The position numbers and the translations under genes were made by a program. Below the pieces are notes generated by a model. It did no database searches. It saw only the letters and a list, made by a program, of their open reading frames with translations, and was not told the DNA's origin. From an uncultured Nocardioides sp. (lineage in GTDB: Bacteria > Actinomycetota > Actinomycetes > Propionibacteriales > Nocardioidaceae), in NCBI GenBank assembly GCA_902805885.1, contig CADCUM010000094.1, forward strand, positions 17,919-81,918: a stretch of 64,000 nucleotides of DNA, written 5' to 3'. The first letter of the stretch is position 1. Every line of letters begins with the position of its first letter. Shown here piece after piece: positions 63,266-64,000 of the stretch.

Positions 63266-63533
63266 GAGGTCGACGGCAGCTGGGCGCACCAGGGCTGCGC
63301 TACGGCTACACCGAAGGCGGCGGGCCATGCCCTCCCCGGGTCGGTCCTGGGTGGGCCCGCGATGCGCCTGCGTCTCGGGGGTGCGCTGACTCCGCGGTGG
63401 GTGGGTGCCGTGCTCCTGCGGGCGACCCCGACCCGCCGTTCGTGCTCGTTCCCCAAAGGATCGTGGTGGGAAGGGGAGGTGGCGGCCTTGCTCACAGGTC
63501 GGCTCTCGGCCGGTCGATGTCATCGATCTGCGA
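63266..63533. other. Gene-free interval before the DUF222 gene
   Basis: I see no coding frame that looks real in these 268 bases. The last part (from about 63515) becomes A+T-rich and contains ATCGAT. Otherwise nothing recognisable. Confidence 0.4.
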
Positions 63534-63539
63534 TATAAT
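63534..63539 (+). promoter_or_regulatory. Consensus -10 box of the terminal DUF222 gene
   Basis: TATAAT, the exact consensus and rare at this G+C, 7 nt before the ATG at 63547; predicted leaderless. Confidence 0.65.
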
Positions 63540-63554
63540 CGAACACATGAGCGA
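63539..63554 (+). promoter_or_regulatory. SOS (LexA)-box-like site over the start codon
   Basis: TCGAACACATGAGCGA matches the actinobacterial LexA site TCGAAC-N4-GTTCGA fully in the left half and at 4 of 6 in the right. It spans the gap between the -10 box and the ATG, so bound LexA would block transcription start. Confidence 0.5.
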
Positions 63555-64000
63555 AGCATTGCAAGCGCGGGTCGCGGGGGACGAACGGTCCCCTGCTGAC
63601 GTGCTTGCCGCGCTGCGTATCGCCCGAGCAACCGAGGACGCAGCCGCCGCTGAGCAACTCGATCTGGCGGCCCGCTGGGCTGACCTGCACCCGCCCGAGT
63701 CGATCCATTCTGCTGCCGTGTTCACCGTCCCGGGGTCGGAGCACGAGGAGCCCATCGCCGGTGAGGGGTGTCCGGCGGTGGCGGAGTTCTGTGTCGCGGA
63801 GCTGGGTGCGGTGCTGGGGATGTCGACGGTCTCGGCGAAGCGGCTGCTGGGTCACGCGTTGGAGCTGCGACACCGCCTCCCTCGGTTGTGGTCCCGGGTG
63901 CAGACGGGTTCGGTGCCGGCGTGGCGAGCCCGGCTCGTCGCAGAGGCCACGATCCACGCCACCCCGGCGCTGACGAAGGACGCTGCCGGCTGGGTGGACG
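63547..64000 (+). CDS. DUF222 / HNH-type (13E12 family) protein, cut by window end
   Basis: Missing from the ORF track because it has no stop inside the window. 151 codons are visible from an ATG 7 nt after TATAAT. The product runs MSEALQARVAGDERSPADVL, AALRIARATEDAAAAEQLDL, GCPAVAEFCVAELGAVLGMS, VSAKRLLGHALELRHRLPRL, ATIHATPALTKDAAGWVD. This DUF222 N-terminal half has the standard helices of the family; the HNH part would lie beyond 64000. The related gene at 22826 has no SOS-like box. Confidence 0.8.
   Translation, partial: MSEALQARVAGDERSPADVLAALRIARATEDAAAAEQLDLAARWADLHPPESIHSAAVFTVPGSEHEEPIAGEGCPAVAEFCVAELGAVLGMSTVSAKRLLGHALELRHRLPRLWSRVQTGSVPAWRARLVAEATIHATPALTKDAAGWVD

Follow-up and report, generated by a model that had tools for sequence, protein, structure and literature searches.

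A fused PafBC-type, -10, LexA-type and start-codon element at DUF222/13E12 genes of Nocardioides and other Actinomycetes: a predicted double damage switch

Where a promoter, an operator and a start codon share the same few bases, it must be asked whether the operator is real and what the arrangement would do. The window, by which we mean the whole stretch of 64,000 nucleotides of uncultured Nocardioides DNA that was analysed, raises this question near its right-hand end, ahead of a gene of the DUF222/13E12 family, which is among the most expanded and least understood in Actinomycetes, with as many as 46 copies in one genome of this analysis. In M. tuberculosis, HNH/13E12 genes are LexA regulated and are induced in a RecA-dependent manner (PMC8151990, PMC4181829, PMC5005354). 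These reports agree with the precedent on which an earlier note on this DNA had drawn, when it described a consensus -10 box, an SOS-like box and a leaderless start fused ahead of the gene and suggested a damage-induced role for the family in another genus.

Layout of the window start site

The three elements lie on the forward strand exactly where the earlier note had placed them: the -10 element TATAAT at 63534 to 63539, of which TANNAT is kept in paralogues and relatives, the predicted LexA (SOS) operator TCGAACACATGAGCGA at 63539 to 63554, and, within that operator, an ATG start codon at 63547 to 63549 on which the aligned protein N termini agree. The first T of TCGAACACATGAGCGA is the last T of TATAAT. 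The account of a fused site thus stood as to layout; what it had missed was the weakness of the right half-site and a further element upstream, TGTCATCG (63518 to 63525, forward strand), whose position is conserved in paralogues and across the genus and which resembles the -26 element of PafBC promoters. These promoters of the RecA-independent damage response (RecA-NDp) have the consensus tTGTCRgtg-8nt-TannnT (PMC5656591). Compared with TGTCRGTG, TGTCATCG matches only in TGTC and the A, and the distance from TGTC to the -10 element is 12 nt; of the full consensus the window copy retains only TGTCA-N11-TATAAT. With the A of the ATG taken as +1, TGTC occupies -29 to -26. Because the ATG follows only 7 nt behind the -10 element, the site reads most naturally as a leaderless start, and the geometry suggests that a leaderless mRNA begins at the window ATG.

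The operator itself has a perfect left half and a degenerate right half (GAGCGA for GTTCGA), which amounts to two mismatches in the 12 specified positions of TCGAACN4GTTCGA, both on the right. This count has no significance of its own, since 2.4 such two-mismatch sites are expected per 64 kb and five were found in the window, and it was dropped as support for the box. A LexA matrix trained on 17 SOS sites, none from a DUF222 gene (lexA, recA, uvrA, imuA-like, alkB-like and others), gave TCGAACACATGAGCGA a score of 18.8, which ranks first among 127,970 window positions and well ahead of the runner-up at 13.7; the weakest training site scored 19.9, and core SOS sites span 19.9 to 28. What decides, at the level of sequence comparison, whether the LexA box is real is its conservation.

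The gene that opens at 63547 is truncated, since contig and window both end at window position 64000, and only its 5' part is available. Taken alone, these 151 residues give a weak Pfam match to DUF222 (E=0.03). They are 68 to 73% identical to complete relatives of about 470 amino acids, and seven of the eight full-length relatives at that level of identity match DUF222 (best E 4e-8), some of them with an HNH domain as well. In full-length relatives the HNH domain is C-terminal, and the window gene stops short at the contig end. PADLOC and NCBIfam offered no family name for these DUF222 proteins, Foldseek found no fold match in the PDB below E=0.001, and a profile search matched the HNH part only, to IscB and McrA. 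The protein may be a nuclease in damage repair or recombination, or the product of a mobile-element-like gene.

Conservation of the composite start within and beyond the genus

The genome from which the window comes is a draft of 125 contigs, 77.7% complete, and it holds four close paralogues of the window gene (C8:392, C10:356, C31:46066 and C69:30623). The DUF222 genes of contigs C8, C10, C31, C69 and C119 are likewise broken at contig ends, because repeated family members break a draft assembly. In an alignment of start regions all five copies keep TGTC-N12-TANAATCGAACAC(A/G)TG(A)NCGA with identical spacing. The four other paralogues carry the box TCGAACAC(A/G)TGATCGA, with a single mismatch and thus better than the window box; the start codon of the C31 copy is GTG. 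Two of them, on C8 (TGTCAGTG) and C69 (TGTCGGTG), match the full consensus tTGTCRgtg-N8-TAnnnT, and so do most relatives. The upstream DNA of the five copies is unrelated (about 45% identity, 37 to 52% in bins), and an unchanged 32-bp element stands between this diverged DNA and codons 5 to 35, which have diverged as well.

The box is shared by further family members, as the reading of the earlier note implied. Among the 11 DUF222-type genes of this genome that have an intact 5' end, a box at or upstream of the start has at most one mismatch in seven (C8, C10, C31, C69, C27, C119 and C124) and two mismatches in two (the window gene and C118); the remaining two, on C72 and C48, have none. Four of these genes belong to other subfamilies in which the box comes without TGTC-N12: on C27 and C119 a perfect box lies right before a TAGAAT -10 element with the ATG 5 to 6 nt further on, and on C118 and C124 a box with one or two mismatches lies about 200 nt upstream.

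Across the genus, the composite TGTC-N12-TANNATCGAACNNNTG occurred at 125 sites in 31 of 150 genomes, and a reversed-pattern control gave 0. The dominant form is TGTCGGTG, which is exactly the published PafBC core at the published spacing, and in 29 of 30 loci fetched a DUF222-type ORF opens at the ATG within the box. Each half of the operator was also left free in turn. With the right half free, NNCGA followed the ATG in 29 of the 30 loci and, when two listings for the genus were compared, in 78 of 81 sites; it followed the ATG at three of 49 ordinary starts led by a Shine-Dalgarno sequence. This is weaker evidence in proteins beginning MSE than in the MIE and MFD types, because ATGAGCGA may be common at high-GC starts. 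With the left half free, all starts with CGAAC belonged to DUF222 genes (18/18), against 2/12 of those without it (Fisher p=2e-6). PafBC-type leaderless starts of other genes do without TCGAAC, which argues that TCGAAC is an added operator.

A stricter pattern of about 20 specified bases was then scanned against 84,980 species genomes and gave at least 118 stretches, nearly all in Actinomycetes, with Nocardioides the most frequent among the matches listed, a result from which the genus of the window can be inferred too. Also among these were Mycobacterium/Mycolicibacterium/Mycolicibacter, Actinomycetospora, Pseudonocardia, Rhodococcoides, Nocardia, Williamsia, Knoellia, Actinotalea, Oerskovia, Cellulomonas, Phytoactinopolyspora and a few MAGs; one MAG is labelled Acidobacteria. 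Among the matches listed, Pfam assigned DUF222 to 54 of 68 ORFs at composite starts and a local HMM to 66 of 79, most of the others being truncated or very short. In genera other than Nocardioides the start usually takes the form of the perfect palindrome TCGAACNNATGTTCGA, with proteins starting MFD or MFE; Actinomycetospora and Rhodococcoides have the MSE/MSD form, as in the window. The AGCGA right half behind an intact TCGAAC left half was found in these two genera and in four genomes of the same genus (G085, G151, G012 and G034). The element is the same in distant genera despite proteins that are only about 20 to 30% identical. Many DUF222 genes do without the architecture, and one genome (G018) has 46 DUF222 matches and no composite site. 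With the same start architecture recurring across genus and class, the proposal of a damage-induced role beyond mycobacteria gains support, as far as sequence can give it.

Some variants of the start were seen along the way. Three loci from another family of the order (L038, L048 and L053) have a shifted module, TTGTCGGTG-N8-TAGGGT-TCGAACATGTCTTCGA, in which the ATG sits two bases closer to the left end of the box. In Nocardia (L113, L147 and L174) the same composite start precedes a short non-DUF222 ORF (MFEHWPE..., 111 to 115 amino acids), which is a candidate for another double damage gene. At one locus (L075, G051:C2:1863443) the composite start, its left half perfect, opens an ORF of just 14 codons, which may be the remains of a gene or encode a leader peptide.

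Damage regulators, a proposed mechanism and its rivals

Both regulators have recognizable traces in this genus. In the PafBC system, PafB reads the -26 element and PafC holds domain 4 of sigmaA (PMC11804915); the M. smegmatis motif is seemingly unused by Streptomyces venezuelae (PMC9380542). Genes under both PafBC and SOS control are known, recA for instance (PMC8223512), at which each system has a promoter of its own (P1 and P2; PMC5656591). In the genome of the window, recA (C13:7258) has TGTCGGTGGCTCGCCCTAGCGT near the SOS box TCGAACACCTGTTCGG, and uvrA (C1:23366) has TGTCGGAGGTGCCTCGTAGGAT plus an SOS box; the genus therefore probably shares the dual control known from mycobacterial recA. 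Similar boxes stand ahead of recA, uvrA, an imuA-like gene and an alkB-like gene. The strict pattern TGTCRGTGN8TANNNT had 11 occurrences in one genome and 26 in another, that at recA included, against 0 in the control, and a pafB-pafC pair is present as tandem WYL genes (C35:36517 and C35:37527). No lexA was found in this draft, 77.7% complete as it is; 11 of 12 relatives in the genus have one, including every genome more than 90% complete, and the ATCGA-type half-site of the four paralogues recurs in lexA promoters of the genus (TCGAACCTCTGATCGA, TCGATCAGACGTTCGA).

What the sequences show is a set of elements in a fixed geometry that stay conserved while their flanks diverge, that are strongly associated with DUF222 genes and whose two regulatory motifs are both present at recA and uvrA of the same genome. 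We consider it likely that they make up a compact, leaderless promoter under double damage control, PafBC switching it on and LexA off, of a multicopy DUF222/13E12 HNH-nuclease-like family. The TGTCRGTG at -26 would be read by PafBC, which upon build-up of single-stranded DNA would let sigmaA RNA polymerase use a promoter that has no -35 box. A LexA dimer would sit on TCGAACNN(ATG)NNCGA, over the end of the -10 element, the start point and the start codon, with starts of the form TCGAACACATG(A/T)TCGA as predicted targets, and would keep transcription blocked until LexA cleavage is triggered by RecA. The transcript would then begin with the A of the ATG and be translated leaderless. Because both signals stem from single-stranded DNA, activator on and repressor off would form an AND-like switch. 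LexA and PafBC binding, the start point and induction at DUF222 starts are predictions of this model, by which genes with the fused start of about 40 bases are probably silent until DNA is damaged. For the window copy, degenerate regulatory motifs together with a perfect -10 element predict that it is repressed less tightly than its paralogues and has a higher basal level.

Other readings would keep less of this scheme. It is possible, if doubtful, that the window copy has lost LexA control, its MSE (AGCGA) form being a relic and the gene constitutive or under PafBC only; two mismatches in the right half, a score below the range of core SOS sites and the perfect TATAAT would all fit such a loss. 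The AGCGA form recurs with an intact left half across genomes of this genus and in Actinomycetospora and Rhodococcoides, however, and is therefore no one-off decay. LexA might also act alone, the TGTC at -29 to -26 serving sigmaA or something else independent of PafBC and the genes being plain SOS genes. That mitomycin induction of several M. tuberculosis HNH genes requires RecA (PMC8151990), that the subfamilies on C27, C119, C118 and C124 have the box without TGTC-N12, and that TGTCATCG in the window is a poor match would agree with this, but the dominance of the exact published core and spacing in TGTCGGTG and the empty control for the strict promoter pattern make it rather unlikely.

The palindrome could instead be a target of the DUF222 protein itself, in autoregulation or in homing and insertion, an idea to which the strong tie to one family and the mobile-element flavour of dispersed, multicopy genes (PMC5005354) lend some appeal. 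It is highly improbable given that the same box precedes lexA, recA, uvrA and imuA-like genes and that its position relative to the start varies among DUF222 genes. Scarcely credible is a passive origin, in which recent duplication or hitchhiking with converted copies preserved the start: paralogues within a genome are indeed more alike than those between genomes and show conversion-like runs, but the divergence on both sides of the unchanged 32-bp element contradicts such an origin, and so does the same element in distant genera with proteins about 20 to 30% identical. The doubly controlled promoter is the reading that we carry forward. A conserved double damage switch that includes the start codon would tell when DUF222 genes act and make their function directly testable through induction with mitomycin C; as a promoter design, it would pack the sites for activator, repressor, polymerase and ribosome into about 40 bp.

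Leader RNA, paralogue mosaics and known damage systems

The two genes with a distant box, on C118 and C124, have a structured leader of about 130 nt between LexA box and DUF222 ATG (C118:1278-1409, forward strand, and C124:11805-11935, reverse strand). The leader loci are these two copies and L327 to L354; a covariance model found the leader 20 times in 12 of 121 genomes of the genus. It stands behind a promoter TTGCNN-N17-TACGAT, or close to it, whose spacer holds the box TCGAACAGGTGTACGA or a near match at a fixed distance, and a DUF222 ORF follows in all 19 cases scored. Over 19 distinct sequences the paired share of pair cells is 97.4%, a value that falls to 31 to 55% when the partner is slid; 15 pairs (5.5 ± 1.6 in shuffles) and 34 cells (7.7 ± 2.5) have changed on both sides, counts that are biased towards the model, to which the alignment was fitted. 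Eleven compensated pairs are found in the first three sequences, aligned without the model. Rfam had no match to the RNA even at E<=10, and among 248 genomes of the order the leader is restricted to this genus; divergent copies again have an SOS-type promoter and mostly a DUF222 ORF. A second DUF222 subfamily thus carries a covarying leader RNA behind a predicted LexA-box promoter, and the structured leader offers a second handle on the family.

Core identity between paralogues is 0.85 to 0.90 within a genome versus 0.82 between genomes, and the differences are clustered to a degree that 0 of 500 permutations reached in four genomes. The paralogues of G099, G085, G128 and G151 (L258 to L293) are mosaics with conversion-like runs of identity, dispersed and with unrelated flanks. 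The mosaic pattern is consistent with gene conversion, to which uneven constraint along the gene could contribute. A broader reading, which we think unlikely, is that DUF222-HNH proteins form a class-wide, damage-launched nuclease system with specialised start modules (the fused switch, and the LexA box with the new leader RNA regulating or working with the HNH protein) and recombining induced copies; recombination among induced copies would then explain the mosaics.

LexA control of M. tuberculosis 13E12 genes was known, and the fused architecture and its spread appear to be new. In a literature whose coverage is incomplete, we found no paper that links 13E12 with PafBC or Nocardioides with SOS-controlled HNH genes, none on a fused PafBC/-10/LexA/start-codon module and none on SOS-controlled DUF222 genes outside mycobacteria. 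A refined M. tuberculosis LexA motif, MKWMTCGAAMRYWTGTTCGA, has been published (PMC4181829); its extra positions resemble the -10 element and the TG of a 13E12 start codon, and part of MKWMTCGAAMRYWTGTTCGA may reflect the promoter and the start codon instead of contacts with LexA.

The REP13E12 HNH genes of M. tuberculosis belong to the same DUF222/HNH family and have the same box consensus, TCGAACN4GTTCGA. What sets the Nocardioides-type start apart is the start codon inside the operator, the PafBC-type element ahead of it, and half-sites of ATCGA or AGCGA (MIE and MSE proteins) instead of TTCGA (MFD and MFE). PafBC (RecA-NDp) promoters share with it TGTCRG(TG), the spacing to a TANNNT -10 element and the -26 position relative to the presumed start, but what differs here is the fusion of a predicted LexA operator with the -10 element and start codon. 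As at recA and other genes under dual PafBC and SOS control (PMC8223512), both systems would meet on one gene; unlike recA with its two promoters, the DUF222 start would serve both from a single promoter of about 40 bp.
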